From a virus: a stretch of 20,394 bases of DNA. Positions 3,341-19,733 of this stretch are shown in pieces. The stretch lies in IMG/VR virus record IMGVR_UViG_3300006874_000191, positions 1-20,394 of that record; one strand, written 5' to 3'. The translations under genes were made by a program, and so were the position numbers. How positions within the stretch are numbered: the first letter of the stretch is position 1; every line of letters begins with the position of its first letter. Under the pieces are notes generated by a model. The model made no database searches. It was given only the letters and a program-made list of their open reading frames with translations, and was not told the origin of the DNA.

Positions 3341-3506
3341 CAAAGACATATGGGATGCGTTTAACGAAGAACTAGATAAACTTATAGCACAGCAACATAA
3401 GTCTATAGAAACACAAACAGATGTGTACTGCATGTATCGTATTCAAGGTCAGATACAGGCTTACAAAAACCTAAAGTACTTGAGGGATAAGGTGAATAAT
3501 GGCTGA
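3315..3506 (+). CDS. Small conserved-type phage protein overlapping the portal gene
   Basis: The product is a 63-aa, mostly helical, charged protein (MSLKQLVNNKDIWDAFNEEL at the start, ending YLRDKVNNG). The ATG lies inside the portal gene (26 bp overlap), and its stop overlaps the next start by 8 bp, so it is embedded in a translationally coupled chain. Its polar, heptad-like pattern suggests a short helical hairpin or coiled coil. Small proteins with a similar start (MSLKQLVNNK...) and YLRDKVN end, located just after the portal gene, are familiar in marine and T7-like phages as hypothetical proteins. That resemblance is from memory. No function is assigned. Position suggests a portal-associated or packaging accessory role, but that is inference. 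Confidence 0.75.
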   Translation: MSLKQLVNNKDIWDAFNEELDKLIAQQHKSIETQTDVYCMYRIQGQIQAYKNLKYLRDKVNNG

Positions 3507-6500
3507 TCCATATGGAGCAATACCCGCACCAGTACCGACTGCAGATGATCTAGCTAGAGCTAAGAGTAGAACTAGGCTAGAGGCGGCAGACCGTCTGGGC
3601 TATTTTATACCACCAGAGATAAAAGACTTTGGACGTAAGGCTTTTAAATTTGCATCTGCAGTAGATCCAGTTCAAGGTATTATGCGTGGTATGTCAGCAT
3701 CAGGTCGAGCATTTGATGAAGATCTTCCTTATGATGAACGTAGACAAGCTGCTATTGAAGCCTCTGTTGAGACATTAGCACCTCTTGGCCTTATTGGTAT
3801 TGGTACTTTAGCTAAGCAGCCAGCTAAGAATATTTTACTTGATACTCTAACTCTTACTGGTGCTCCTTCATCTATGACAGATGCTGTTGGATTCGATCCA
3901 GGACGGCGTAAGTTTTTACAACAGTCATTAGCTGCAGCGGGTACAGCAGCGGTTGCGCCAGATATTCTATCTGACTTAGGAACTAAAGCTACTAAAGTAG
4001 CAGCTAAATCAATAGGCAATATTGATGCAGCAGTTAGTAAGCTTATAGGTATGCGTAAGAACAGTAGCGCCCTTATTGAACGTGGCCTTAATATAGAATC
4101 TAATATCTACCGACAAACAAGCACACCTAAACCTCCTAAAGATAATAAACTTCTCTTATCTAAAGACTATGCAGATAAGCTAGAACTAGAAGAAGGTTTT
4201 CGAAAAGAATTAATAGCTAGTGGTAATAAGCCTCAAAAAGAAGTAAATGATCTATATAGTCAAGCCGACTCATTAAATAGAGAAGCTGACACTATGGCTT
4301 ATCAAATCCTAGAAACTATAGGTGATAACCCAGAAGTACTTCCTACATTAGAATCTCAAACCATTGAAGACCTTATTGGTTCTTTTAATATAGATGAAAG
4401 AATGGGTGCTGCACAAGAAACAGATGCTTATATGGCACTTGTAGAAGAAGCTATACGTAGAGGTATGCATAAGGATTATGAAAAATATCCTATGACAGAT
4501 ATAGCTGCAGAGTATACACTAAAGGATATTGAAGGAGGCTTCACTTCAGGTATGGTAGACTTACGAAACATAGATCTAAATGTTTCACCTGGGCCTAAAA
4601 AAAGAAAAGATTCACCACGTGTAATAAAGGAGGGTGTATCTCCTCAAGAAGCACTAAAACTTACAGATGAAGATATTGAGTTATTTCGCCGTCCAGCGCT
4701 AGAGGGTGGTCGGGGTACAACTGAAGCCTTCCGTAAAGCCCTTAAAGGCAGGAACGAAGAACTTACATCTTTAGCTAATCAACTAAAAGAAGGTAATATA
4801 ACTGTAAGAGAATATCGTCAAGCAGCGGATCGTATTCGTCCTATTAGAGAACTTAATAGTGTACCAGAACCAGCGAGGTTTCGTGAAATTGTATCTGCAT
4901 TAGATGCAGGTAAACGTAAGAAACCTATAGTCGGTTTAACCACTACATTATCTGAAGGTGATGAAATCACAGCACGTTTAGATATTAATGCATATACAGA
5001 TTACGATGTGTGGGTTCCTACGCTAACACATAATAAACAGACAATGTATAAGCCTACTGTTGTAATGCGTAACGTAGAGTTTATACAACCAGACAGCCCT
5101 GCAGTTAAAAAAGCTATGAATGTAGCAGCAGGACAAGCTAAAGCACCCTTTGCAGTTATGAAAGGTAACTACGTAGATGTTAATGACTACGATGCTTTTA
5201 GTTTAGCTAAAGACAATTTTAAGTCTGACGAGTGGATTCAAGTAGGTTATGACCCAACTAAGCGTGGGTATTTTTATGACAGGTCTACAGGTGAACCTGT
5301 CCTTAACGCAGAAGAAGTAATACAGGTAGGTTCGTTGGTACTTGCCAAGAACGCAAGAAAGGGCGATGCAGACGCATTCGCTTTTAGTAAAGGTGGTATG
5401 GCTATGGACGAACAAATGAACGCAATATTTAAGTCCTCTCGCGGTTATGCAGAAGGCGGTGAAGTAGAAGTAGATCCTGTGTCAGGGAATGAAGTACCGC
5501 CCGGTTCAATGCCTGAAGAAGTTAGGGATGACATTGACGCTCGTCTAAGTGAAGGTGAATACGTTGTACCTGCAGATGTTGTACGATACTTTGGTGTTAA
5601 ACTCTTTGAAGATTTACGCATCCAAGCTAAGCGTGGTATGGCGCAAATGGACGCAGAAGGTCGCATAGGTGGAGAGCCTATGAGTGGCATGGAGATTGTT
5701 GAACCTGAAGATGATCTACCCTTTGACATGGAAGACCTAGAAGTTGTTGAAGTTATGGAGATGGACGAAGGGGGAGATGTTGGATATGCCAGACGTGGCA
5801 TGATTACATCAGCAGATCCCGACTCCCCAATGGGTGCATTAGGTTTAGGCACAGAGGGCTTAGGCATAGGAGCCACATCATCTAATGTAGAGATGAAAAA
5901 GTATGTTAATGAAGATGGTCATTCATTGATGATTATGTTTATTAATGGTGTACCTCAACAGGTAATTCCTGCAGGTTATTTCTTAGAAGAAACAGAAGCT
6001 GTAACAACGGAAGAAGAAGATACTACTACAGATACAGAAGCAGAAGCAGTAGCATCTGTAGCTTCTTCAAGAGATGACAAAGATCCCTTTAAGGATATAC
6101 CAATGCCTGAAGGGGTAAACTATAAAGAGCTTACCTATGATGAAATGGTAGCGATGGTAAAAGATAATCAGTCTATGAAAGGTGATTTAGCATCTACTGG
6201 TATGGGGATAGTAAATCCTATATTAGGTATTGTCGTAAAGCTTGCCCTTATGAACAGTAAGCGTCAACTAGAAAATGAAATGAAACGTAGGCTGGACGCT
6301 GGAACTCTTACGTCTCAAGAGCAATCAAATCTTGCAGACCTCTTGAAATCATCACAAGAAGGAAGGACTGGTTTCATGAGAGCGCTGTTTGGTGATGAAG
6401 CTACCACAGTAGCTTATAAACCTATAGTTACTTCAGGTGCGCCTGTCAACACATCAACAATAAATGCTCTTGCTGATGAAGCAGCTAGAGATGCAGCACA

Positions 6501-6978
6501 AAAGTTAAAAGACGATGAAGCTGCAGCACGTAGACGCCTTGCAGAGCTACAAGGTATAGCAGCATCAGAATCTGTTGCATGGCAAGTGTCAGGCTCGACA
6601 GCAGGGGCTGCTGGTACTACGCCAGCAGTAGGAACGTCTGACACTACAACAGGTGGTGTTGTTGGTGGCTATTCAACATCTGATCTAGCAGATCAATACG
6701 GCTCATATGGAGCAGGTAAGCCAAAACCACCCAGACCGTCAGCTAAACCCTATTCAAGCATTTCAGGATCTGACGATAATGATACTTCCAATACAGCAAG
6801 AAGCGAAACAAATGCAGCTACTCCTGCTTCTAAAAAAACAGCAAGAGATACAGCTTATCGCTCTGGAATTAGTGGATCGACAGCAGCAAGGCTCTCAGGT
6901 GAAACTATGAAAGCAGGTACATCTGGAAGTGGACCCTTTAATGAGGGCGGTTTAGTGAAGAGAAGAAAGAAGAAGTAA
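3499..6978 (+). CDS. Large composite polyvalent-like internal virion protein
   Basis: The product has 1159 aa and is probably packaged in or attached to the virion and ejected with DNA, judged from size and position between portal and scaffold. Parts in order: an N-terminal helical region with hydrophobic stretches (residues 93-105); a twin-arginine-like GRRKFLQQSLAAAGTAAVAP at 135-154; a long charged helical middle; a beta-rich domain from about 490 containing VGYDPTKRGYFYDR (582-594), recalling domains of large polyvalent phage proteins. Then come KGGMAMDEQM and YAEGGEV (650-656), a DDIDARLSEGEYVVPADV domain at 677-699 common in marine phages, acidic low-complexity segments, a hydrophobic stretch at 902-919, and an Ala/Thr/Ser-rich tail ending EGGLVKRRKKK. 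The start is supported by AAGGTG 6 bp upstream and by overlap with the preceding gene. Molecular function is unproven. Confidence 0.7.
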   Translation: MADPYGAIPAPVPTADDLARAKSRTRLEAADRLGYFIPPEIKDFGRKAFKFASAVDPVQGIMRGMSASGRAFDEDLPYDERRQAAIEASVETLAPLGLIGIGTLAKQPAKNILLDTLTLTGAPSSMTDAVGFDPGRRKFLQQSLAAAGTAAVAPDILSDLGTKATKVAAKSIGNIDAAVSKLIGMRKNSSALIERGLNIESNIYRQTSTPKPPKDNKLLLSKDYADKLELEEGFRKELIASGNKPQKEVNDLYSQADSLNREADTMAYQILETIGDNPEVLPTLESQTIEDLIGSFNIDERMGAAQETDAYMALVEEAIRRGMHKDYEKYPMTDIAAEYTLKDIEGGFTSGMVDLRNIDLNVSPGPKKRKDSPRVIKEGVSPQEALKLTDEDIELFRRPALEGGRGTTEAFRKALKGRNEELTSLANQLKEGNITVREYRQAADRIRPIRELNSVPEPARFREIVSALDAGKRKKPIVGLTTTLSEGDEITARLDINAYTDYDVWVPTLTHNKQTMYKPTVVMRNVEFIQPDSPAVKKAMNVAAGQAKAPFAVMKGNYVDVNDYDAFSLAKDNFKSDEWIQVGYDPTKRGYFYDRSTGEPVLNAEEVIQVGSLVLAKNARKGDADAFAFSKGGMAMDEQMNAIFKSSRGYAEGGEVEVDPVSGNEVPPGSMPEEVRDDIDARLSEGEYVVPADVVRYFGVKLFEDLRIQAKRGMAQMDAEGRIGGEPMSGMEIVEPEDDLPFDMEDLEVVEVMEMDEGGDVGYARRGMITSADPDSPMGALGLGTEGLGIGATSSNVEMKKYVNEDGHSLMIMFINGVPQQVIPAGYFLEETEAVTTEEEDTTTDTEAEAVASVASSRDDKDPFKDIPMPEGVNYKELTYDEMVAMVKDNQSMKGDLASTGMGIVNPILGIVVKLALMNSKRQLENEMKRRLDAGTLTSQEQSNLADLLKSSQEGRTGFMRALFGDEATTVAYKPIVTSGAPVNTSTINALADEAARDAAQKLKDDEAAARRRLAELQGIAASESVAWQVSGSTAGAAGTTPAVGTSDTTTGGVVGGYSTSDLADQYGSYGAGKPKPPRPSAKPYSSISGSDDNDTSNTARSETNAATPASKKTARDTAYRSGISGSTAARLSGETMKAGTSGSGPFNEGGLVKRRKKK
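3901..3960 (+). other. Twin-arginine-like motif inside the 1159-aa protein
   Basis: Codons 135-154 read GRRKFLQQSLAAAGTAAVAP: two adjacent arginines, then x-Phe-Leu-Gln and a weakly hydrophobic Ala-rich stretch ending near Ala-Pro. This matches the layout of a Tat signal (RRxFLK plus a hydrophobic core), but it lies about 135 residues from the N-terminus, where it could not act as a normal signal peptide unless the protein were processed or the motif serves another purpose. Described as a motif only; export function is speculative. Confidence 0.35.
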
Positions 6979-9352: not shown

Positions 9353-9790
9353 ATGGCAATTACTACAGCAATGTGTAACAGCTTTAAACAGGAACTGCTG
9401 AAAGGTGAGCATGATTTAGACAACCACACATTGAAGGTTGCCTTGATTAAGGATACACCGTCAGGAACCTATGGTGCTGCTACAACAAACTATTCTGACG
9501 TTACAGGTAACTCAGATGAAGCTTCAGGTACTAACTACACTGCAGGAGGTCAAGCACTAGATAGCCCTACTGTTAGTCTTTCTGGTGGTGTGGCTTATGT
9601 TGACTTTGCAGACGAAGTATTTAGCAACTTAACTATTTCTGCTGATGGTGCTATTATTTATAACAGTAGTGCCAGCAATAAAGCTATAGCAGTCTTTGAC
9701 TTTGGTAGCACAGTAACATCTACATCAGGTGATTTTACTATTGTGTTCCCAACTAACGACTCTTCTAGTGCAGTAATACGTATTAGCTAA
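9353..9790 (+). CDS. Small virion protein, possible capsid decoration protein
   Basis: The product is a 145-aa beta-rich protein. It starts MAITTAMCNSFKQELLKGEH and continues with NHTLKVALIKDT, a Gly/Thr-rich middle (TNYTAGGQALDSPTVSL) and a C-terminus with ADGAIIYNSSASNKAIAVFD and GDFTIVFPTNDSSSAVIRIS. Proteins of this layout are common in marine phage structural modules, usually unannotated. Location directly after the capsid gene suggests a head decoration or cement protein, but a head-tail joining or tail role is equally compatible with the sequence. AGAGGAT lies about 9 nt upstream of the ATG. It follows the capsid hairpin, so its mRNA level is probably lower than that of capsid. Confidence 0.6.
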   Translation: MAITTAMCNSFKQELLKGEHDLDNHTLKVALIKDTPSGTYGAATTNYSDVTGNSDEASGTNYTAGGQALDSPTVSLSGGVAYVDFADEVFSNLTISADGAIIYNSSASNKAIAVFDFGSTVTSTSGDFTIVFPTNDSSSAVIRIS

Positions 9791-9805: not shown

Positions 9806-12800
9806 ATGGCATTAATTATTAAAGATCGTGTCAAAGAGATCACGACTTCTACAGGTACAGGTGCTGTATCTTTAGAAGGAACCTCTGCGACATTTGACAC
9901 ATTTCAAAGTGTTATGTCAAATGGAGACACAACCTTTTATGCCATTGTGCATACCGCTTCTGCTACAGATGAATGGGAAGTTGGACTAGGCACGTGGAAC
10001 ACAGGTAATACCCTGACACGTACAACTGTCTATGCTGGATCAAGTGGTACTTCTGCTGTCAACTTCAGCAGTGGTAATAAAGATGTCTTTATGACATATC
10101 CTGCAGGTAAAGCTGCTGTCACAGGAGAAGATGTTACATTTGCAGATATTACTGTTACAGGAACAGTAGACGGGCGTGATGTAGCTACAGATGGTACCAA
10201 GCTAGATACGATAGAAACTAATGCAGATGTAACAGACACTACAAATGTTTCTGCTGCTGGGGCTTTGATGAAGTCTGGCGGCACTATGACAGGTAATCTT
10301 ATCCTTAATGCTGATCCCACTACAGCACTAGGAGCCGCAACAAAAGAGTATGTAGATACGATTGCTGCAGCAGGTATTCATTACCACACACCAGTACGTG
10401 TTGAATCCCCCAGCGCACTTACTGCTACGTATAATAATGGTTCGTCTGGTGTAGGAGCTACACTTACAAACAGTGGCACACAAGCTGCACTAGTTATTGA
10501 TGGTGTAACACTAGCTACCAGTGACCGTGTACTTGTGTATAACCAATCTAATGCAGCACACAATGGTATTTATACAGTAACCAACACAGGCTCTGCATCT
10601 ACTAATTGGGTACTTACCCGTGCTACAGACGCAGACAGTTATGCTCCATCAGACCCAGATGCAATGGGTGAAGGTGACGCATACTTTGTTAAAGAAGGCG
10701 ACACAGGCGCTGGCGAACTATATGTGATGAATACTAGTGGTACTATTACATTTGGTACTACTGCTATTAACTTTACAGTTATTGCTGAGACAGCCGTATA
10801 TAGTGCAGGAAATAGTTTAACTCTTACTGGCACTACTTTTGACACAATACAAGATATACAAACATCAGCAAGTCCTACATTTGCTGGTGCTACTGTTAAC
10901 GGTAACATCACAGTTACAGGCACTGTAGATGGACGTGATGTTGCTGCAGATGGTACTAAGCTAGATGGCATTGAAGCTAATGCTGACGTAACAGATACAG
11001 CCAACGTGACCGCCGCTGGCGCACTCATGGACAGTGAAGTCGCAAACCTTGCACAAGTAAAAGCTTTTGACAGTGCTGATTATGCTACGGCTGCACAAGG
11101 CACTACAGCAGATAATGCTTTACCTAAAGCTGGTGGCACTATGACAGGCAACATTGTCATGTCTAGTACAGAAACTGTGGATGGTAGGGATCTATCTGTA
11201 GACGGAGCTAAACTAGATGGCATAGAATCTGGTGCTACTGCTGACCAGACTGCATCAGAGATACTTACAGCTATTAAGACAGTAGACGGTTCTGCATCTG
11301 GTCTTGACGCAGACTTACTAGATGGACAACAGGGTAGCTACTATCTTAACACAAGCACATCATTCAGTGGTGACGTAAGTGGTACTTATAACGCCATAGT
11401 CGTAGCAAATGATAGTCATACCCATGATACCAGATACTTGCAGCTTACTGGGGGTACATTTGCGGATAATGCTGTTATTAAATTTGGTTCTGATGAAGAC
11501 CTAAGAATTTACCATAGTGGTTCGTTTGGTTTAATAGATAACAGTAGTTCTTCTAATACCCCTCTTATAATTGGAAATAATGGCAATGATCAACAAATAA
11601 GAATAAGAACTAAAAAGACAGGCGAAGCTACAACAACCAATATTTTTATTGCAGATGGAGCAACTGGCGAAGCGCAGCTTTTGCATTTAGGTGATGAAAA
11701 GCTCGCAACCAAAAGTACAGGTATTGATGTAACAGGCATAGTCACAGATGACGGTGCTACCCATGATGGTGATGTTACGTTTACGGGCGCGTCTTATAAT
11801 GCCCTCTGGGATAAATCAGACAATGCCCTTGAATTTGCAGATAATGCTAAAGCTGTATTTGGAACTGACAGTGACTTTGAGCTTTATCACAATGGTTCAC
11901 ATTTATTTTTATATAATAATACTGGTAGTAATTATTTCAGGTCTAATAGATACGCCTTTTCAAATACAAGTGGGACACTTATGGCCAACATGTATTCTGG
12001 GGGTCAAGTAGAGTTATATCATTCAGGATCAGAAAAGTTTAGAACTACGTCATCAGGAATTGATGTAACTGGCAATATTGCTGTCTCAGGCACTGTTGAT
12101 GGTCGTGATGTTGCAACAGATGGGACAAAGCTGGATGGGATCGAAGATAGTGCGGATGTAACCGATGCGACAAACGTAGCGGCGGCAGGTGCGGCTATGA
12201 CCACGGGGGCGACATTTACAGGTGCTGTTGGTGTTGATGCAAACTTTGATGTTAAAAATAACAGATTTACGGTAGACTCCTCAACAGGTAATACCTTTGT
12301 TCTTGGTTCTTTGACTGCTTCAGGCACAATATACGCAAACAACGGGGCTACTTTCGGCGACAACGACAAAGCCATCTTCGGCGCTGGGTCTGACCTACAG
12401 ATTTACCACAACGCAAACAACAGTTACGTTCAAGATGTTGGCACTGGCAAATTACACATCACAAGTGATGGCACAGGTGTAAGCATCGACAAAGGCACAT
12501 CAGAATTAATGGCTACGTTTGATACAGATGGCGCAGTTACGCTTTACTACGACAGCGCAGCCAAACTCGCCACCACCAGCACAGGCATTGACGTAACGGG
12601 CAACATTACAGTCTCAGGTACCGTTGATGGTAGAGATGTTGCAACAGATGGGACTAAATTAGATGGTATTGAAGCAGGTGCAACTGCTGATCAGACTGCT
12701 AGTGAAATCCTTACTGCTATCAAAACTGTAGATGGCTCTGGTTCAGGCCTAGACGCTGACCTGTTGGATGGTAACCACGCAAGCGCATTCTTGACAGGAA

Positions 12801-13525
12801 ACCAAACAATTACTTTGTCAGGTGATCTATCTGGATCTGGCACAACATCCATCGATGCGCAGCTTGCTTCTAACGTTGTCGGTGCTGCTGAATTAAACGT
12901 AACGGGTAATGGTACAACATCGCAGTTTTTACGCTCTGACGGTGATGGTACATTTACTTGGGCAACGCCTGAAGGATCCATTCCCTCTGGTACTGTTATG
13001 CTATTTGCACAGACTGCGGCCCCGACAGGCTGGACAAAATCCACGGCACACGACAACAAGGCATTGCGCGTTGTTTCAGGTACCACTAGCTCTGGCGGTT
13101 CCGTAGATTTTACAACTGCATTTGCATCTCAGGCAATTAATGGATCTATTGGAAATACTACAGCGGGTGGATCAATTGGAAATACCACTGCGGGTGGGTC
13201 TGTTGGATCTACAACCCTGACAACATCAACAATCCCAAGCCACAGGCATACTCGCATACAGGCAGGGGGAGTGCTAGAGGTAGGGGAAAACACTCCCTTT
13301 AATACAGCGTATTGCCGCTCTATACATTATCGCGGCGGTAATGACTTTACAGCCTCGCCTTTTATGACCAACTATACGGGTAGCAGTGGCTCTCACAACC
13401 ACAGCTTTTCAGGTACAGCCCACAACCACAGCTTTTCAGGTACAGCCCACAATCACAGCTTTTCAGGTACAGCCGTAGATCTAGCCGTACAGTATGTTGA
13501 TGTTATTATTGCGACGAAAAATTAG
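9806..13525 (+). CDS. Modular tail fibre with collar-like, His-rich tip
   Basis: This 1239-aa fibre subunit is probably trimeric and binds the host surface. The N-terminal module (about 1-105, starting MALIIKDRVKEITTSTGTG) is a common virion-anchoring type. SGGTMTG motifs occur at 157 and 443, the first leading into AATKEYVD. Residues about 193-330 form a well-known fibre domain with VIDGVTLATSDRVLVYNQ, NGIYTV and TRATDADS. Five VDGRD-type repeats start at residues 121, 374, 458, 764 and 940, and three D-x-x-[IL]YH repeats at 565, 690 and 863. The C-terminus from 1057 (SIPSGTVMLFAQTAAPTGW) resembles a phage tail collar domain and ends with four HxH motifs (1146, 1197, 1206, 1215). The gene is compositionally mosaic. 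An AAGGT ribosome site precedes the ATG. The chaperone-like gene at 13812 probably serves this fibre. Confidence 0.85.
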   Translation: MALIIKDRVKEITTSTGTGAVSLEGTSATFDTFQSVMSNGDTTFYAIVHTASATDEWEVGLGTWNTGNTLTRTTVYAGSSGTSAVNFSSGNKDVFMTYPAGKAAVTGEDVTFADITVTGTVDGRDVATDGTKLDTIETNADVTDTTNVSAAGALMKSGGTMTGNLILNADPTTALGAATKEYVDTIAAAGIHYHTPVRVESPSALTATYNNGSSGVGATLTNSGTQAALVIDGVTLATSDRVLVYNQSNAAHNGIYTVTNTGSASTNWVLTRATDADSYAPSDPDAMGEGDAYFVKEGDTGAGELYVMNTSGTITFGTTAINFTVIAETAVYSAGNSLTLTGTTFDTIQDIQTSASPTFAGATVNGNITVTGTVDGRDVAADGTKLDGIEANADVTDTANVTAAGALMDSEVANLAQVKAFDSADYATAAQGTTADNALPKAGGTMTGNIVMSSTETVDGRDLSVDGAKLDGIESGATADQTASEILTAIKTVDGSASGLDADLLDGQQGSYYLNTSTSFSGDVSGTYNAIVVANDSHTHDTRYLQLTGGTFADNAVIKFGSDEDLRIYHSGSFGLIDNSSSSNTPLIIGNNGNDQQIRIRTKKTGEATTTNIFIADGATGEAQLLHLGDEKLATKSTGIDVTGIVTDDGATHDGDVTFTGASYNALWDKSDNALEFADNAKAVFGTDSDFELYHNGSHLFLYNNTGSNYFRSNRYAFSNTSGTLMANMYSGGQVELYHSGSEKFRTTSSGIDVTGNIAVSGTVDGRDVATDGTKLDGIEDSADVTDATNVAAAGAAMTTGATFTGAVGVDANFDVKNNRFTVDSSTGNTFVLGSLTASGTIYANNGATFGDNDKAIFGAGSDLQIYHNANNSYVQDVGTGKLHITSDGTGVSIDKGTSELMATFDTDGAVTLYYDSAAKLATTSTGIDVTGNITVSGTVDGRDVATDGTKLDGIEAGATADQTASEILTAIKTVDGSGSGLDADLLDGNHASAFLTGNQTITLSGDLSGSGTTSIDAQLASNVVGAAELNVTGNGTTSQFLRSDGDGTFTWATPEGSIPSGTVMLFAQTAAPTGWTKSTAHDNKALRVVSGTTSSGGSVDFTTAFASQAINGSIGNTTAGGSIGNTTAGGSVGSTTLTTSTIPSHRHTRIQAGGVLEVGENTPFNTAYCRSIHYRGGNDFTASPFMTNYTGSSGSHNHSFSGTAHNHSFSGTAHNHSFSGTAVDLAVQYVDVIIATKN
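10166..12676 (+). repeat. Five VDGRD-type protein repeats in the fibre
   Basis: The motif TVDGRDVATDGTKLDGIE or a close variant begins at nt 10166, 10925, 11177, 12095 and 12623. Two of the five (the third and fifth) continue into the same longer module, GATADQTASEILTAIK plus TVDGS-x-SGLDADLLDG; the others continue into ADVTD-x-x-NV-x-AAGA. Spacing is irregular, so these are modular building blocks and not a simple tandem array. Confidence 0.8.
11498..12409 (+). repeat. Three D-x-x-IYH-type repeats in the fibre shaft
   Basis: DLRIYHSG (from 11498), DFELYHNG (11873) and DLQIYHNA (12392) each begin a segment of roughly 60-70 residues ending in KLATTSTGIDVTG or a close variant. They look like repeated shaft or carbohydrate-facing domains. 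Units differ strongly in base composition. Confidence 0.7.
13142..13216 (+). repeat. 27-bp tandem repeat encoding GSIGNTTAG
   Basis: Two full 27-bp units (13142-13168 and 13169-13195) and a diverged third unit (from 13196, GSVGSTT) encode GSIGNTTAG-GSIGNTTAG-GSVGSTT just before the SHRH motif in the fibre tip. Such short in-frame repeats can change copy number by slippage. Confidence 0.8.
13394..13474 (+). repeat. Three tandem 27-bp repeats encoding HNHSFSGTA
   Basis: Units at 13394-13420, 13421-13447 and 13448-13474 are identical except for one synonymous change (AAC to AAT in the third). Each encodes HNHSFSGTA at the fibre tip. HxH motifs in fibre tips such as T4 gp37 bind iron in the trimer axis; by analogy these may stack metal ions. 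Confidence 0.9.
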
Positions 13526-13527
13526 AT

Positions 13528-13815
13528 ATGAAGATTGAGCCTAAAAACGGTTGCCCATTAAATAGTTTTGAGCCATGCAAGCAATTAGATTGCGCTTGGT
13601 TTGTACAAATTCGCGGCATGAACCCAAACACAGGGAAAGAGATAGATGAGTGGGGATGCTCTATGGCATGGCAACCTATTTTAATGATTGAAAACTCTCA
13701 GCAACAGCGCCAAACAGCGGCGGCTGTAGAAAGTTTTCGCAATGAAATGGTTGTATCAAATCAAAATACTCTTAAGTTATTTTATAACAGCTCACTAAAG
13801 GAGATTGAGAAATGA
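13528..13815 (+). CDS. Small four-cysteine protein of unknown function
   Basis: The 95-aa product has cysteines at 9, 17, 22 and 44 in the pattern NGCPLN...PCKQLDCAWF...EWGCSMAW, followed by a helix with NSQQQRQTAAAVESFRNEMV. The four cysteines could bind zinc or an iron-sulfur cluster, but no known finger spacing is matched. Similar small proteins lie near fibre genes of marine phages as hypotheticals (from memory). It starts 2 bp after the fibre stop and overlaps the chaperone-like gene by 4 bp (ATGA), so it belongs to the same translational unit. No good ribosome site is visible; coupling to the fibre is likely. Function is not assigned. Confidence 0.72.
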   Translation: MKIEPKNGCPLNSFEPCKQLDCAWFVQIRGMNPNTGKEIDEWGCSMAWQPILMIENSQQQRQTAAAVESFRNEMVVSNQNTLKLFYNSSLKEIEK

Positions 13816-14219
13816 GACTTACAGTGGTTCCAATTGATGGAACGGTAGTCAAAAATGGGGTGAGTTATTCAGATCTTGACTTATCTGGCGCTAATATTCC
13901 TTCTAATATTCATGCGTTGCAATGGCAGGGGCAGAGTGGTTGGATTGAGCTAACAGATATGGCGAACATCCCATTGACAGAGTTGCCTGAATGGGCAGAG
14001 GCAGCTTCAGCTATATGGGACAATGCTGAAGCCATAGCTAACGCCCCGCCGCCTGATCCCACGCCGGAGGAGCTTACTGCTATTCGTATATTGGAACTAA
14101 AGGATCTGCTCCGCGAAACTGATTATGTCGTTCTTTCTGATTATGACAGAGATAAGCCTGATGTTATTTCTCAACGCGCTGCGTGGCGTGAGGAGATTAG
14201 AACGCTTGAGGCTGAGTAA
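13812..14219 (+). CDS. Tail-fibre assembly chaperone-like protein
   Basis: The 135-aa protein has an N-terminal beta part (MRLTVVPIDGTVVKNGVSYS, then HALQWQGQSGWIEL). A Pro-rich linker (NAPPPDPTPEE) follows, then a helical C-terminus with LKDLLRETDYVVLSDYDRDK and ISQRAAWREEIRTLE. The L-K-x-x-L-x-x-T-D-Y-V plus R-x-x-W-R-x-x-I pattern is that of phage tail assembly chaperone C-terminal domains (Pfam Phage_tail_APC type). Such proteins usually act on the fibre encoded next to them, here the 1239-aa fibre. AAAGGAG (13797-13803) lies 8 nt before the ATG, and the start overlaps the preceding stop by 4 bp. Confidence 0.75.
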   Translation: MRLTVVPIDGTVVKNGVSYSDLDLSGANIPSNIHALQWQGQSGWIELTDMANIPLTELPEWAEAASAIWDNAEAIANAPPPDPTPEELTAIRILELKDLLRETDYVVLSDYDRDKPDVISQRAAWREEIRTLEAE

Positions 14220-14243: not shown

Positions 14244-15350
14244 ATGCTAGGCTTTAGTAGTTTTTCACAGGCTTCTTTTTCCTCTTTAGGGGTTACCTCT
14301 TTAGGGGCGCTTGCTTTCTTGGCTACTACAGCGTCTAGCTTTTCAATTGCTGCTATTACCTCTAACGGTCAGGCAGGTCCAGTACTCCCTTCTGCCTCTG
14401 CTACTTTTACAGCAAATGCATTTGGTGATGTAGATGCACAAGCTACAACAGAACTAATAAATGCTTTAGCTTCATTTAATATAGCTACACTGGCTGATAT
14501 AGATGCACAAGCTAATACTACTCTACCAGCAGCTACTGCTACTTTTACTGCAGCAGCATTTGGTGACGTAGATGCACAAGCAAGTATAACTTTTTCGGGT
14601 GCAACCTCTACTTTTGCTGCATCAGCACTTGACTTTGATGCACAGGCAAGTATAACTACTTCTAATGTAATATCTTCTTTTAGTATTAATGACTTTACTT
14701 CTGTAACAGGTTTAGCTAATATTACACCAAGTGGTGCTACAGCTACCTTTGCATTAGACATAGACTTTGACGCTAAAGCAAACACAAGCATAGGCGGCTC
14801 TGTTACAGCTACACTTACTGCCTCAGATGTTGAGGGTGATGGACAAGCAAGCGGATTCTTAACTACTACTGCAGCATTCCTCTCAATCTACATTACAGAC
14901 TTTGCAGATGAGGACGCACAAGCTAGAGCGTTTATGCCAGTGGCAGCGTCTAGCATTACAGCAAGTGCTTTTGGTGACATAGATGCTAAAGCTAATACAA
15001 CTAGTCAATCTGTAACAGCAGCACTAGAAGCATCAGCATTTGATGATGTAGACGCTAAAGCTAACATAACGCCCAGCGCAGCAACAGCTACGATAGTGAG
15101 CACAGATGTTGAAGGTGATGGTCAAGCAACTATTATACCCTCTTCTCTCTTACTAACACAGGCTGTTAACTTAGATGATCCTACTGCTGTAAGATTTGAC
15201 TTTACTCCATTTATAGATACATATGATAGAAATAGAATTATTTATGTAGTATCCTATGGAGGTAGTGATACAGCACACATTAGAGAAGAGAACAGAACAG
15301 TTTACATAGAAAAAGATACACAAAATAAAACTGTGTATATTGCAGCATAA
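14244..15350 (+). CDS. Acidic 22-25-residue repeat protein, probable virion surface or tail protein
   Basis: The 368-aa product has three parts. Residues 1-41 are Ser/Ala/Phe-rich and hydrophobic (MLGFSSFSQASFSSLGVTSL), with no basic residue and so not a normal signal peptide. Residues 42-300 are about eleven degenerate repeats of 22-25 residues with consensus A-x-x-T-P-x-x-A-T-A-T-F-T-A-x-A-F-G-D-V-D-A-Q. Each alternates a Thr/Ala beta-like stretch with an acidic turn ending DAQ, DAK or DGQ. The C-terminal 60 residues form a distinct domain (NRIIYVVSYGGSDTAHIREE and TVYIEKDTQNKTVYIAA). There is no Cys or Trp and very little positive charge in the repeats. It sits between fibre genes and the adaptor, so a tail or head appendage is likely. 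Function is unknown; Ca2+ binding by the acidic turns is a guess. Confidence 0.72.
   Translation: MLGFSSFSQASFSSLGVTSLGALAFLATTASSFSIAAITSNGQAGPVLPSASATFTANAFGDVDAQATTELINALASFNIATLADIDAQANTTLPAATATFTAAAFGDVDAQASITFSGATSTFAASALDFDAQASITTSNVISSFSINDFTSVTGLANITPSGATATFALDIDFDAKANTSIGGSVTATLTASDVEGDGQASGFLTTTAAFLSIYITDFADEDAQARAFMPVAASSITASAFGDIDAKANTTSQSVTAALEASAFDDVDAKANITPSAATATIVSTDVEGDGQATIIPSSLLLTQAVNLDDPTAVRFDFTPFIDTYDRNRIIYVVSYGGSDTAHIREENRTVYIEKDTQNKTVYIAA
14367..15150 (+). repeat. About eleven degenerate 22-25-residue repeats
   Basis: The repeat ends read, in order, DVDAQ, DIDAQ, DVDAQ, DFDAQ, SVTGL, DFDAK, EGDGQ, DEDAQ, DIDAK, DVDAK, EGDGQ, each followed by Ala and a Thr/Ser/Pro-rich stretch. 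DNA identity between units is modest, so the array is old or has been diversified under protein-level constraint. Confidence 0.8.
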
Positions 15351-15359
15351 GGACTAAAG

Positions 15360-15689
15360 ATGTCTTATAAGTGGCCTAATAAAGATCCCGACGAGAGTAA
15401 CGTTGATTACAGCGTAGATTGGTCACGTTTCTTAGGTAGTGATACTATTTCTTCTGCCTCTTGGTATATATACGATGCGGATGGAAATAAAGGTAGTGCT
15501 TTATCTGACTCTGATGTGGTTAATGGATTACAGTTTGTTACAGGTACCGTTAATACAGCAAACACTGTAGCCACTATACGACTATCTTTAGGTACAAATA
15601 ATGTAAGATATAGAATTGTTTGCAGAATAAATACATCAGATAATGGATACTTTGAGCGCTCTATTTATTTGCGCGTTAAGGAAAAATAA
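15360..15689 (+). CDS. Small Ig-like virion protein
   Basis: The 109-aa beta-rich protein begins MSYKWPNKDPDESNVDYSVD, followed by WSRFLGSDTISSASWYIYDA. A middle part (FVTGTVNTANTVATIRLSLG) precedes the last strands RYRIVCRINTSDNGYFERSI and YLRVKEK. The alternating pattern and the final Y-x-R-I-V...R-S-I-Y-L-R-V-K-E-K strands resemble small immunoglobulin-like phage proteins placed beside tail genes. The exact place in the virion cannot be told. AAGGA lies about 7 nt before the ATG. It shares a transcript with the repeat protein (9-bp gap) and the adaptor (2-bp gap). Confidence 0.62.
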   Translation: MSYKWPNKDPDESNVDYSVDWSRFLGSDTISSASWYIYDADGNKGSALSDSDVVNGLQFVTGTVNTANTVATIRLSLGTNNVRYRIVCRINTSDNGYFERSIYLRVKEK

Positions 15690-15691
15690 AA

Positions 15692-16381
15692 ATGGCGTAT
15701 GATTATTTAGGCTTAGTTAATGATGTTAACCGTAGGTTAAATGAAGTAGAATTAACTTCTGGTAACTTTTCTACTACTACAGGTTATTATAGCTTTGCTA
15801 AGGATGCAGTCAATGCTGCTATACGACACATCCAGCACGAAGAGTTTGAATGGCCTTGGAACCACGTAGAAGAGATTGAGGCTCTTGTACCTGGAACTGT
15901 TAGATACGGTTTTCCTTATGATGCTAAAACAATTAATATGAATACGTTTAGAATTAAACGTGATAACTCTCTTAATGTTACTACTAAAAAGTTAAAGATC
16001 TTATCTTACGAAGAATATCTGGACAAGTATGCTGACTTAGAGTATGATACAAATACAAGTAACAGAAGCGTACCTACACATGTAGCACGTACACCAAGCC
16101 GTGAGTTTATGCTTTATCCTAATCCAGACAAAGCTTATGAATTAATATATGAATACTATACTACAGGCTTTGACTTAGAAAATGCTACAGATGTACCTAA
16201 TCTACCAGAGCAATATAAGTATGTAATTGTTGATGGCGCTATGTATTATGTATATCAATTTCGTGGTGACTTACAAGCAGCACAACTATCCTTAAGTAAA
16301 TTTGAGGATGGCATTAAATATCTACGTAGTATTCACATTAATCGCACTGATTATCTAAGAGATACAAGAGTACATTACTAA
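15692..16381 (+). CDS. Head-to-tail adaptor (gp4/gp11-like connector)
   Basis: This protein forms the ring under the portal that joins head and short tail, like P22 gp4 or T7 gp11. The 229-aa product has an N-terminal helical part (YLGLVNDVNRRLNEVELTSG, then YYSFAKDAVNAAIRHIQHEE). A beta insertion follows (VPGTVRYGFPYDAKTINMNT), then a C-terminal helical part with DGAMYYVYQFRGDLQAAQLS and LSKFEDGIKYLRSIH, the family's usual layout. It lies directly before the nozzle gene and its TAA overlaps that start (TAATG), so the two are co-translated. The ribosome site AAGGAAA is 6 nt before the ATG. The call rests on layout and context and is good but not certain. Confidence 0.78.
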   Translation: MAYDYLGLVNDVNRRLNEVELTSGNFSTTTGYYSFAKDAVNAAIRHIQHEEFEWPWNHVEEIEALVPGTVRYGFPYDAKTINMNTFRIKRDNSLNVTTKKLKILSYEEYLDKYADLEYDTNTSNRSVPTHVARTPSREFMLYPNPDKAYELIYEYYTTGFDLENATDVPNLPEQYKYVIVDGAMYYVYQFRGDLQAAQLSLSKFEDGIKYLRSIHINRTDYLRDTRVHY

Positions 16382-17928
16382 TGGCTACACAGTGGCAAAC
16401 ATTTCCTATTGAGTTTAGAGGTGGGTTGATCTCTAACCTATCACCGTTGCAACACGGTACTAATGCTGTGGGTTCTGCTACTATTCTACAGAACTTTGAG
16501 CCAAACAAAGAAGGTGGCTACTCTAAGATCAAAGGTTACGAAAAGTTTAGTACCACTACTGTTCCGGGTAGTGGTCCTATACTAGCACTTAAAGTAATTT
16601 CTTCAGGCCGTATCATTGTTGCCCGTAAGAACGCAAGTAATTATACTCAGTACTATTACGGTACAGGTACCACGTGGACTAGCATGGCTACTAGCGCAGG
16701 TACTAACGGCGGTAAAGCACGACACGTAGAGTTTAACTTAGACGGGGATGACAAAGTAATATTTGTAGATGGTACGAACTACCCTGCCATCTATAATACA
16801 TCTGGTAACACTACTACTTTTATGACATCTGCTAATAGTACAGATGTAAGTGGCGCAGAGCATGTAGCTATATTTAAGAATACAGCGTTCTACAGTAAAG
16901 GCAACAGTATATTTTTTACTGCCCCTTTTACAGTGGACGATTTCGATGTAGCAAATGGTGCAGGTAGTATTAACTTAGGTGCAGATGTTACAGGGTTAGC
17001 AGTCTTTCGTGATCAACTTATTATATTTACAACCAATAGTATTAAACGTCTGACAGGTAGTACCTCTGCTGACTTTCAAGTAGCCCCAATTACAGATCGC
17101 ATAGGCTGTATTAATGGCGACACTATTCAAGAAGTTGGTGGTGATATTATTTATTTAGCTCCTGATGGTTTGCGCCTCTTGAGTGCCACAGATCGTATTG
17201 GTGACTTTGCTCTAGATGTTGCATCTGATAAAATACAGAAGGATGTTATAGACTTCCTTAACACTGCATCAATCTTTTCCTCTGTAATACTAAGAGAGAA
17301 AGCACAGTACCGTATATTTGCATATGTAGCATCTGAACTTACATACGTTGCCAAGGGCTTAATTGCTACAAAGTTTATTTCTCAAGGTGCTTCAGGTTTA
17401 TCTTGGGCTACAACTAAAGGAATTAAAGCTTACGTAGCAGACAGTCGCTACGCTAATGATCAAGAGACTGTAGCCTTTGCTAATGAAGATGGTTACATTT
17501 ATATTTTAAACACAGGTAATACTTTCGATACGGACATCATAGAAGCAATTTACGAATCTCCATATATGCCTATAGCAGATCCACAGATGCGTAAGACATT
17601 TTATAAAATGACTTTGTATGCTGAGCCTACAGGTAGTATGAGCTTAGATGTTAATTTAAAATATGACTTTGCATCTCCAAGCAATACAAAAAAAGTTCAA
17701 CCTTCTACTTTTAGTATTGTATCTAGCGGCAATACTACATTTGTATACGGTGCATCTAATGCAATATTTAATACTGCTACATATGGCGGTGAGCTAGATG
17801 AAGACTTCTCAGCAAATGTAATAGGTTCAGGTAAGACAGTAGCATTACGAATTGAAGATAGTTCAACAAATCCAACCTTCACGCTCGACACAGCGATATT
17901 AGAATTTAGACAAAACGATAGGCAGTAG
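16381..17928 (+). CDS. Tail nozzle / tail tubular protein B-like
   Basis: This protein forms the distal part of the short tail tube (P22 gp10, T7 gp12 role). The 515-aa product is beta-rich with a propeller-like distribution. The N-terminus (MATQWQTFPIEFRGGLISNL, then LQNFEPNKEGGYSKIKGYEK) is typical of this family, where the protein announces itself with a GG-x-x-SN-x-SP start and a GGYxKIxGYxKF block. Later blades carry VEFNLDGDDKVIFVDGTNYP, VAIFKNTAFYSKGNSIFFTA and LAVFRDQLIIFTTNSIKRLT. It overlaps the adaptor by one base and is followed 2 bp later by the second fibre gene, consistent with a fibre attaching to the nozzle. No enzymatic motif is visible. Confidence 0.8.
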   Translation: MATQWQTFPIEFRGGLISNLSPLQHGTNAVGSATILQNFEPNKEGGYSKIKGYEKFSTTTVPGSGPILALKVISSGRIIVARKNASNYTQYYYGTGTTWTSMATSAGTNGGKARHVEFNLDGDDKVIFVDGTNYPAIYNTSGNTTTFMTSANSTDVSGAEHVAIFKNTAFYSKGNSIFFTAPFTVDDFDVANGAGSINLGADVTGLAVFRDQLIIFTTNSIKRLTGSTSADFQVAPITDRIGCINGDTIQEVGGDIIYLAPDGLRLLSATDRIGDFALDVASDKIQKDVIDFLNTASIFSSVILREKAQYRIFAYVASELTYVAKGLIATKFISQGASGLSWATTKGIKAYVADSRYANDQETVAFANEDGYIYILNTGNTFDTDIIEAIYESPYMPIADPQMRKTFYKMTLYAEPTGSMSLDVNLKYDFASPSNTKKVQPSTFSIVSSGNTTFVYGASNAIFNTATYGGELDEDFSANVIGSGKTVALRIEDSSTNPTFTLDTAILEFRQNDRQ

Positions 17929-17930
17929 TT

Positions 17931-19733
17931 ATGGCAGGTTACACACGTCAAGATACAGCAAACAACATTGCTAACGGTAACGTTATTGATGCAGACGACT
18001 TTGATGCGGAATACAATGCCGTAGAATCTGCCTTTAACGCATCCTCTGGTCATAGACATGACGGTACAGCAGGTGAAGGTGCACCTATTACAAAGGTAGG
18101 CCCAAGCCAAGACTTGATTGTATCGGCAACAAATGTCAATCCTAAGACAACCAACACGCTAGACCTTGGTGTTTCAGCAGGTGTTAAGTTTAAGGATGGA
18201 TACTTTCAAGGTACACTTGTAGGCGAGACAGCAGTTAAGGCTGGCACCAACAGGTATATGACACTAACAGATAATGAACTTGATGTATCTACAGGTAATC
18301 TTACTGTTGATGTAGAGGGTGATATTACTCTTGATGCCAACGGCGGTGATATTCTTCTTAAGGATGACGGTATTACTTTTGGTGGTATATCAAATTCATC
18401 AGGGGAAACAGTAATTAAATCAGGCTCTACCCCTACCACTGCTATTACACTTTCGGGCGCAAATGCTACGCTTGCAGGTAATACTATTGTATCAGGTACG
18501 TTAGACGTAACAGGGGTTGTTAACTTTAACAATACTACAGCAAGCACATCTAATACTACAGGTGCTGTTATTGTTGATGGCGGTATGGGTGTTGCTGATG
18601 ACGTAAACATTGGTGGAGATGTAGACATAGATGGTGACCTTACCGTATCAGGTGTAGGTAAGAACATCACAGGTAACTTGATTGGTGATGTGAAGAGTAC
18701 AAACGGTACTAGTGTGCTTGATAGTGGTACTAATGGAACAGATGCAAGCTTTACAGGGTCAGTAACAGGTAACGCATCTACAGCTAGTGCATGGCAGACA
18801 GGTCGAACTTTTGCGTTAACAGGAGATGTCGCTGGTTCTGTAACAGGTGTAGACGGTTCTGGTAATGTATCAATATCAACTACAATACAGGCAAACTCTG
18901 TTGCGCTGGGTACAGATACAACAGGTAATTACGTAAGTAGCTTGGTTGCTGGTACAGGCGTTACTCTTACTAATAACTCAGGAGAAAGCGCTACACCTAC
19001 TATTGCCATTGGTCAGGCTGTGGCTACAAACTCAAACGTAACCTTTAACAACATTACTGCTTCTGGTAATCTTACAGTAAATGGCACGACTACTACAGTT
19101 AATACTACCAACACCACTGTATCAGATAGCCTTATTGAGCTAGGTAATGGCACATCAGGTACACCTGTTAATGATGCTGGTATTGTTATTGAACGTGGTG
19201 ACAGTAATAATGCCTTTATTGGTTGGGATGAAAGCGCAGACAAGTTTAAAGTAGGTACAGGTACATTTACGGGTGCATCTACAGGTGATCTTACTATTAC
19301 TACAGGAACACTTGTAGCTAACATTGAAGGTAATGTCACAGGTGATTTAACAGGTAATGCTGATACAGCTACAGCTTTAGCAACTGCACGTACTATTTCT
19401 TTAACTGGTGATGTATCAGGATCAACTTTTTTTGATGGAAGTGGAAATGTAAGTATTACTGCCACAGTAGCAGACGACAGTCACAACCACGTTATATCTA
19501 ACATTGACGGTTTGCAAACTGAGATTGATACAAAAGCAGAATTAGCTGGATCTGCAAGTCAGGCATTTTCTGCTTCTACTTTAAATGCTACAACAATAGA
19601 CTTAGGTGATTGGACTATTACACAATCAGGTACAGATTTAAAGTTTGCTTATCAGGGTGTAGATAGACTTAAATTAAGTAGTGCAGGTGCACTTACAGTA
19701 GAAGACGATGTAACAGCGTTTGGTAATGCGTAA
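17931..19733 (+). CDS. Second tail fibre, nozzle-proximal
   Basis: The 600-aa fibre has a conserved-type N-terminus (MAGYTRQDTANNIANGNVID, FDAEYNAVESAFNASSGHRH, then DGTAGEGAP) followed by a TNTLDLGVSAGVKFKDGYFQ block, a familiar anchor of marine podovirus fibres. The shaft is Thr/Gly/Asn/Val-rich. It contains a duplicated unit (ALTGDVAGSVTGVDGSGNVS at about 18798-18887 and SLTGDVSGSTFFDGSGNVSI at about 19383-19470) and a domain with SDSLIELGNGTSGTPVNDAG and FIGWDESADKFKVGTG, as seen in marine T4-like phage fibres. The C-terminus ends LKFAYQGVDRLKLSSAGALT plus VEDDVTAFGNA, without any chaperone or peptidase domain. The stop overlaps the next start (TAATG). The fibre probably attaches to the nozzle. 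Confidence 0.82.
   Translation: MAGYTRQDTANNIANGNVIDADDFDAEYNAVESAFNASSGHRHDGTAGEGAPITKVGPSQDLIVSATNVNPKTTNTLDLGVSAGVKFKDGYFQGTLVGETAVKAGTNRYMTLTDNELDVSTGNLTVDVEGDITLDANGGDILLKDDGITFGGISNSSGETVIKSGSTPTTAITLSGANATLAGNTIVSGTLDVTGVVNFNNTTASTSNTTGAVIVDGGMGVADDVNIGGDVDIDGDLTVSGVGKNITGNLIGDVKSTNGTSVLDSGTNGTDASFTGSVTGNASTASAWQTGRTFALTGDVAGSVTGVDGSGNVSISTTIQANSVALGTDTTGNYVSSLVAGTGVTLTNNSGESATPTIAIGQAVATNSNVTFNNITASGNLTVNGTTTTVNTTNTTVSDSLIELGNGTSGTPVNDAGIVIERGDSNNAFIGWDESADKFKVGTGTFTGASTGDLTITTGTLVANIEGNVTGDLTGNADTATALATARTISLTGDVSGSTFFDGSGNVSITATVADDSHNHVISNIDGLQTEIDTKAELAGSASQAFSASTLNATTIDLGDWTITQSGTDLKFAYQGVDRLKLSSAGALTVEDDVTAFGNA
18798..19470 (+). repeat. Duplicated LTGDVxGS...DGSGNVSI unit in the second fibre
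   Basis: Two copies of about 29 residues (nt 18798-18887 and 19383-19470) share T-G/A-R-T, LTGDV-x-GS, DGSGNVSI and a following Thr/Val strand. Both are fibre shaft modules; the second continues into VADDSHNH. Confidence 0.7.

Follow-up and report, generated by a model that had tools for sequence, protein, structure and literature searches.

GP4-type fibres and the gene before gp77

GP4, a podophage of the soil bacterium Ralstonia, reportedly carries five chain-like fibres anchored to a 15-fold gp77 collar/adaptor, and its fibre I is said to consist of five gp80 dimers on a “rope”. The fibre naming of gp80 and gp77 is backed by a PDB title and by Pfam names, and 10 gp80 chains are deposited in PDB entry 8jou. 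According to the available part of PMC11966396, ORF78 is fibre II of GP4, and from this and the Pfam numbers we infer that the rope gene is gp79. The gp53 collar of DEV (Schitoviridae), a 15:12 fibre collar, was likened to GP4 by its authors; there, however, one fibre protein forms both collar and fibre, and a rope is not mentioned in the accessible portion of the report (PMC10925440).

The order gp80, repeat protein, gp77 was found in seven of seven GP4-type phages (JC1, DC1, BcepIL02, Itty13, POI1126, PBC5 and Atu_ph08). Pfam called gp77 in all of them and in BcepMigl, where a pectin-lyase gene sits between the protein in the repeat slot and gp77. The first of the three JC1 genes (JC1_53) matches PF23140, “GP4 fiber I protein gp80”, with E 1.7e-43 and PDB chain 8jou_a with E 1e-57, the second (JC1_54) encodes a 291-aa repeat protein, and the third (JC1_55) is gp77. 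The slot proteins of the seven phages have a period of 20–22 residues, with z from 3.3 to 8.3 (Itty13 gave 3.7 in one computation and 2.7 in another), and 10–11 repeats were counted by eye from the strand peaks of JC1_54. PDB sequence searches with JC1_54 and with a profile of five slot proteins matched no phage chain, and a cellular-genome scan with JC1_54 confirmed no relative. In Atu_ph08, an Agrobacterium phage, the slot gene is an unannotated plus-strand ORF (L178:3869-4423; 184 aa as called) with 20-residue repeats, at a position where the record annotates a minus-strand hypothetical gene, gp30.

The order differs in the mycobacterial siphophage Rumpelstiltskin, which has gp77, gp80 and then a minor tail protein with repeats; the C-terminal region of its gp24 has a period of 20 (z 5.8, on a segment chosen by eye) and ends in the tail pattern described below. 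Two other candidates were rejected: the “tail repeat like protein” of MJing1, which has a different repeat, and Bradyrhizobium phage ppBdUSDA122-1 as a carrier of the three-gene arrangement, since the two genes before its gp77 encode unrelated proteins. The latter phage has a gp77 homologue (L088:7956-8267; PF23148, E 7e-22) and a tape-measure gene, with no repeat protein before gp77, which indicates that gp77 may have other uses.

The repeat protein and its family

The window analysed here is the whole 20,394-base stretch of DNA, a viral record that is itself a fragment. Because the portal shares 86% identity with that of Roseobacter phage CRP-207 and 67% with that of HMO-2011, we treat the virus as an HMO-2011-type podovirus that probably infects marine bacteria and is itself marine. 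The gene order was as expected (terminase, SU10-type portal, major capsid protein, adaptor, tail genes), and Rfam and ARAGORN gave no matches on the window. A 1159-aa protein encoded after the portal (3499-6978) contains a region, EEVRDDIDARLSEGEYVVPADVVRYFG, that recurs slightly altered in one relative (L133).

The repeat protein is encoded by an intact plus-strand ORF (14244..15350, 368 aa), and is our candidate rope. Upstream on the same strand lies a gene for a tail-fibre assembly-like protein (13812..14219; phrog_4912, E 3.7e-4). Downstream, also on the plus strand, follow a homologue of gp77, the GP4 fibre-tail adaptor (15360..15689; Pfam PF23148, E 1.9e-14), a head-tail adaptor of the SU10 adaptor family (15692..16381; PF24175, E 6.5e-20) and a tail protein matching phrog_5107 and phrog_511 (16381..17928). 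The position of this last gene after the adaptor suggests that its product is probably a nozzle or nozzle-like tail protein, and we disbelieve the label “amidase”, which is attached to phrog_5107 in PHROG and used by RefSeq in HMO-2011. Two further genes, at 9806-13525 and 17931-19733, have counterparts annotated as fibre in CRP-603 / CRP-207 and are probable fibre genes.

The protein begins with a conserved segment that is a possible anchor (residues 1-37, 14244..14354, plus strand; M(L/Y)GFSxFSETPFxQ in relatives), continues with twelve repeats, each 21-25 residues long (residues 38-311, 14355..15176) and closes with a C-terminal part (residues 312-368, 15177..15347) that ends in the double strand RTVYIEKDTQNKTVYI. 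Self-similarity over residues 41-305 peaked at an offset of 23 (mean BLOSUM62 0.84, z 10) with a harmonic at 46, against a best value of 0.25 over all tested offsets in 300 shuffles. The units start at residues 38, 61, 84, 107, 129, 152, 173, 196, 221, 244, 267 and 289; the motif scan gave 13 places, and the one at residue 70 was dropped because it lies inside a unit. The initial annotation had described about eleven repeats of 22-25 residues, so that the repeats themselves stand while their number is corrected to twelve, with a period of 23. It had also called the protein acidic, free of Cys and Trp and nearly non-basic. Neither Cys nor Trp occurs in the 368 residues, and the repeats are indeed acidic, with 29 D/E against 4 K/R/H in residues 41-305; “nearly non-basic” thus suits the repeats, whereas the whole protein has 11 K+R (and 39 D+E), the basic residues lying mostly outside the repeats.

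The IMG/VR scan confirmed 83 relatives, and the best 80 of these 83 are 33-100% identical over the best segment. After removal of open-ended and duplicate ORFs, 51 distinct full-length proteins of 212 to 389 aa remained among these 80 loci. Their lengths equal roughly 5 to 13 repeat units, with spacings mostly of 21-25 residues; a scan with the units of the window protein itself found 4-12 units, a lower count because divergent units were missed. Six residues are invariant in 41 aligned members (M1, G3, S8, A179, F318 and Y327), and a unit reading FADEDAQA is nearly so, as are parts of the tail TVY..TV.I. Both ends of the protein are conserved among relatives, including residues from about 312 to 368, which bears out the distinct C-terminal domain initially proposed. 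The absence of an obvious family was also upheld: neither the protein nor the 41-member alignment matched a named family in sequence searches of Pfam, PHROG and the PDB. A few of the 41 members gave single weak PHROG matches (best E 0.0022), none common to more than two members, and a Pfam match of the window protein to LRR_5 (E 0.59) was dismissed as chance. A literature search, to the extent that texts were available, turned up neither a rope protein nor this family as the subject of a paper.

The variation in repeat number also bears on whether the protein could instead decorate the head or neck, as an extended belt that staples the capsid or neck and forms no fibre. PHROG would agree with such a role, since its category is “head and packaging, virion structural protein” for the JC1 homologue and “head protein” for gp80. 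However, the Pfam names and a PDB title, which follow a solved structure, make gp80 and gp77 fibre proteins, and in the family studied here repeat number varies while the gp77-like and adaptor neighbours are well conserved, so that we regard a belt as quite improbable.

The slot before gp77 and a candidate fibre subunit

A gp77-like match lies downstream of the repeat gene in 76 of 80 related loci (the best 80 of 83), and the other four loci end 0-79 bases past the last base of the repeat gene present. A gp77 HMM was seeded with the proteins of the window, JC1, Itty13, POI1126, Atu_ph08, Rumpelstiltskin, the Bradyrhizobium phage and three CRP phages; its matches in these seed phages hold by construction, and Pfam confirmed gp77 in the seeds, CRP-603 being outside that check. 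An upstream ORF that satisfied the cut-offs was present in 110 of the 129 loci with a gp77 match, and in 79 of these 110 exactly 9 nt separate its stop from the start of gp77. Periodicity at 19-25 residues with z>3 was found in 60 of 77 distinct slot proteins of at least 200 aa, most of them homologues of the window protein, versus 40 of 386 other ORFs, a comparison set that includes fibres.

Since tblastn of the window protein against phages gave no match, named relatives were identified by gene slot. CRP-207, CRP-345 and CRP-603 are the sole named HMO-2011-type records with gp77-like tblastn matches, and each of these three cultured roseophages has a repeat protein in the same slot, recorded as a hypothetical protein (gp50, gp55 and gp57, respectively). 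CRP-207 and CRP-603 show a recognisable FxFxxxxxxYSRDRT stretch ahead of the tail, but the CRP slot proteins are built from 20-22-residue “VSATGxVG” repeats. Those of JC1, DC1 and BcepIL02 resemble the window protein in slot, repeat architecture and length (285-291 aa vs 368) and differ from it in sequence and period, and JC1_54 matches phrog_19041. More generally, the period of 20-22 in GP4-type slot proteins contrasts with the acidic 23-residue repeat of the window protein, and the two groups show no significant sequence match: hhalign of the window family against the GP4-type slot proteins gave E 0.3, with the C-terminal tail as the sole match.

The ends of these proteins are nevertheless similar, in motifs that were chosen after the fact. 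N-terminal starts are alike in JC1_54 (MDFYALNETPING), POI1126 (INAFAINEGAI), PBC5 (LNALALNEGNF) and a relative of the window protein (MYGFSTFSETPFAQ), and the C-terminal ends RGMRVDRENRTLRV, RTIIVQRDPRGLIV and RVMRVRDFRRLQV of several slot proteins resemble that of the window protein. A pattern describing the C-terminal double strand matched eight of eight GP4-type slot proteins (those of the seven phages and Rumpelstiltskin gp24, with BcepMigl left out) and one of the three CRP proteins (CRP-207 yes, CRP-603 and CRP-345 no). Overall it matched 58 of 81 slot proteins versus 9 of 962 control ORFs and 0.2-9% of single-tail shuffles, figures that we take as support and not as a test, because the pattern was written after the sequences had been seen and most of the 81 are homologues. 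In CRP-345, tail-like strands occur on a separate 37-aa ORF between the repeat protein and gp77, and this separation suggests a tail that works as a docking module.

The window thus shares with the GP4 fibre-I module a gp77-family adaptor directly downstream of the repeat protein and a repeat protein in the slot found between gp80 and gp77 in GP4-type phages, and the slot directly upstream of a gp77 homologue points to a role in a GP4-type fibre I. It differs in lacking a gp80-family subunit (PF23140) detectable by sequence: the gp80 HMM found nothing at E<=10 in all frames of this 20-kb fragment. In its place, the window encodes a 145-aa protein of phrog_644 (9353..9790, plus strand), which does not adjoin the repeat gene and is a candidate for the role of gp80. 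phrog_644 is not in PF23140; hhalign found no match between phrog_644 and gp80, the Pfam Gp80 model matched none of 16 phrog_644 members, and a search of these 16 sequences with the gp80 HMM at full sensitivity gave a non-significant best E of 0.029 (4.5 bits). The AlphaFold model of the phrog_644 protein (pLDDT 69, pTM 0.68) retrieved GP4 gp80 as the third of 79 Foldseek matches, with a non-significant E of 1.6. In VIA-align, GP4 gp80 ranked fourth (Z 4.8, rmsd 3.5, 99 aligned) and was outscored by T4 / KP1 baseplate chains and by chain K of the Bas63 connector (9mt4_K, Z 5.5).

Gene content links phrog_644 to the same arrangement. Among named HMO-2011-type records it occurs in exactly CRP-207, CRP-345 and CRP-603, those with a gp77 match and a repeat protein, and in CRP-345 its gene adjoins that of the repeat protein. 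gp77 was present in 38 of 38 phrog_644 loci reaching the adaptor gene, all of them close relatives, whereas roseophages of another kind, CRP-901 and CRP-902, have phrog_644 without a gp77 match. Minor tail proteins with 22-residue repeats adjoin phrog_644 in Gordonia phage GMA1 (L092:5453-6712) and Mycobacterium phage Bruin (L093:3945-4907), and in CRP-902 phrog_644 lies two genes from a 20-residue repeat protein; for these three phages the repeat z was computed on segments chosen by eye, and no gp77 match was found in the ~10 kb examined. The cases of GMA1 and Bruin suggest the same pairing of phrog_644 with a repeat protein in actinobacterial phages. On this gene content and the structural model, the phrog_644 protein is likely the fibre subunit of the proposed rope, which we offer as a lead and not as a claim of homology. 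In one relative (L133:4086-4457), a second, gp80-like ORF (HMM E 9e-4) directly follows phrog_644; it was rejected as the subunit of the window, from which it is absent, and tblastn matched it to only two phage records, roseophage CRP-6 and an Octadecabacter virus.

The proposed rope

We consider, with somewhat better than even confidence, that in this HMO-2011-type podovirus a tail fibre of the GP4 fibre-I kind is built as a chain, for which the repeat protein serves as the rope. The C-terminal strand pair, and perhaps the N terminus too, would dock on the collar that the gp77-like protein forms around the head-tail adaptor, and the repeats would run outward as an extended chain. Each repeat would contribute one or two beta strands to a subunit of the fibre, for which the phrog_644 protein is the likeliest candidate, and the number of repeats would set the count of strung subunits and the length of the fibre. 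Of this picture, the repeats, their family, the slot and the homology to gp77 are shown directly; the function as a rope, the addition of strands, the end that docks, the pairing with phrog_644 and the ruler are inferred. The 10–11 repeats of JC1_54, set beside the ten gp80 chains in 8jou, correspond to about one repeat per gp80 chain, and by analogy with GP4 the window protein may string about twelve subunits. Relatives with well-conserved gp77-like neighbours differ in length (one, L029, has 249 aa and a gp77-like neighbour 89% identical), suggesting that fibre length is free to vary.

Structure prediction of the monomer, a check that the initial annotation had proposed, yielded a mostly beta-strand model of low confidence (mean pLDDT 36.9, pTM 0.24). 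The beta units suggested at the outset are consistent with this model, but a free-standing beta-solenoid or rod is not supported by it, although a solenoid is still compatible. The poor model fits a rope, a chain expected not to fold without its partners, and would arise equally from a trimer or a thin alignment. Fibre shafts typically show strand-turn repeats in variable number, and the protein might accordingly be a self-standing trimeric shaft or spike, whose C-terminal strands would attach it to the gp77 collar. Its repeats and their variable number are typical of shafts, a fibre-assembly-like gene lies just upstream, and intertwined trimers often model poorly as monomers. Such a shaft is unlikely, however, as the protein has no obvious tip or receptor-binding domain and ends at the C terminus in a short, conserved pair of strands, the window contains the other probable fibre genes at 9806-13525 and 17931-19733, and the same slot in GP4-type phages adjoins the gene of the fibre-I subunit.

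Evidence on the virion itself comes from the GP4-type phages. Mass spectrometry of JC1 virions found gp53 and gp55, and gp54 is unmentioned in the main text of the report as far as it was available (PMC9144972). This absence, and the deposition of the DC1 and CSP3 homologues as hypothetical proteins, would be expected if the protein were an assembly factor outside the virion, for example a fibre scaffold or chaperone. We consider this very improbable, since depositors annotated the BcepIL02 and BcepMigl homologues as virion-associated, and a rope present at a low copy number, presumably about five per virion, would be easy to miss. By its gene slot the protein is most likely part of a virion appendage, as first proposed; rather than an appendage not yet described, it is a probable new variant of an already known fibre type, with the GP4-type fibre I module as its model.

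More tentatively, and with the odds against it, the rope may belong to a widespread unnamed class of proteins with 20-23-residue strand repeats and short anchoring ends. In podophages and siphophages whose hosts live in seawater or soil or are actinobacteria, proteins of this kind would form modular beads-on-a-string fibres, in which each repeat grips one subunit and repeat number serves as a length ruler. HMO-2011-type phages have been described as dominant and broadly distributed in the ocean (PMC9038755, in the part available), and the literature examined, as far as accessible, held no structural account of how their fibres are attached. If the rope assignment is true, it would provide a gene-level rope candidate for HMO-2011-type phages, assign a fibre role to phrog_644 and a set of so far unnamed repeat proteins, and offer a simple test, that of repeat count against fibre length.
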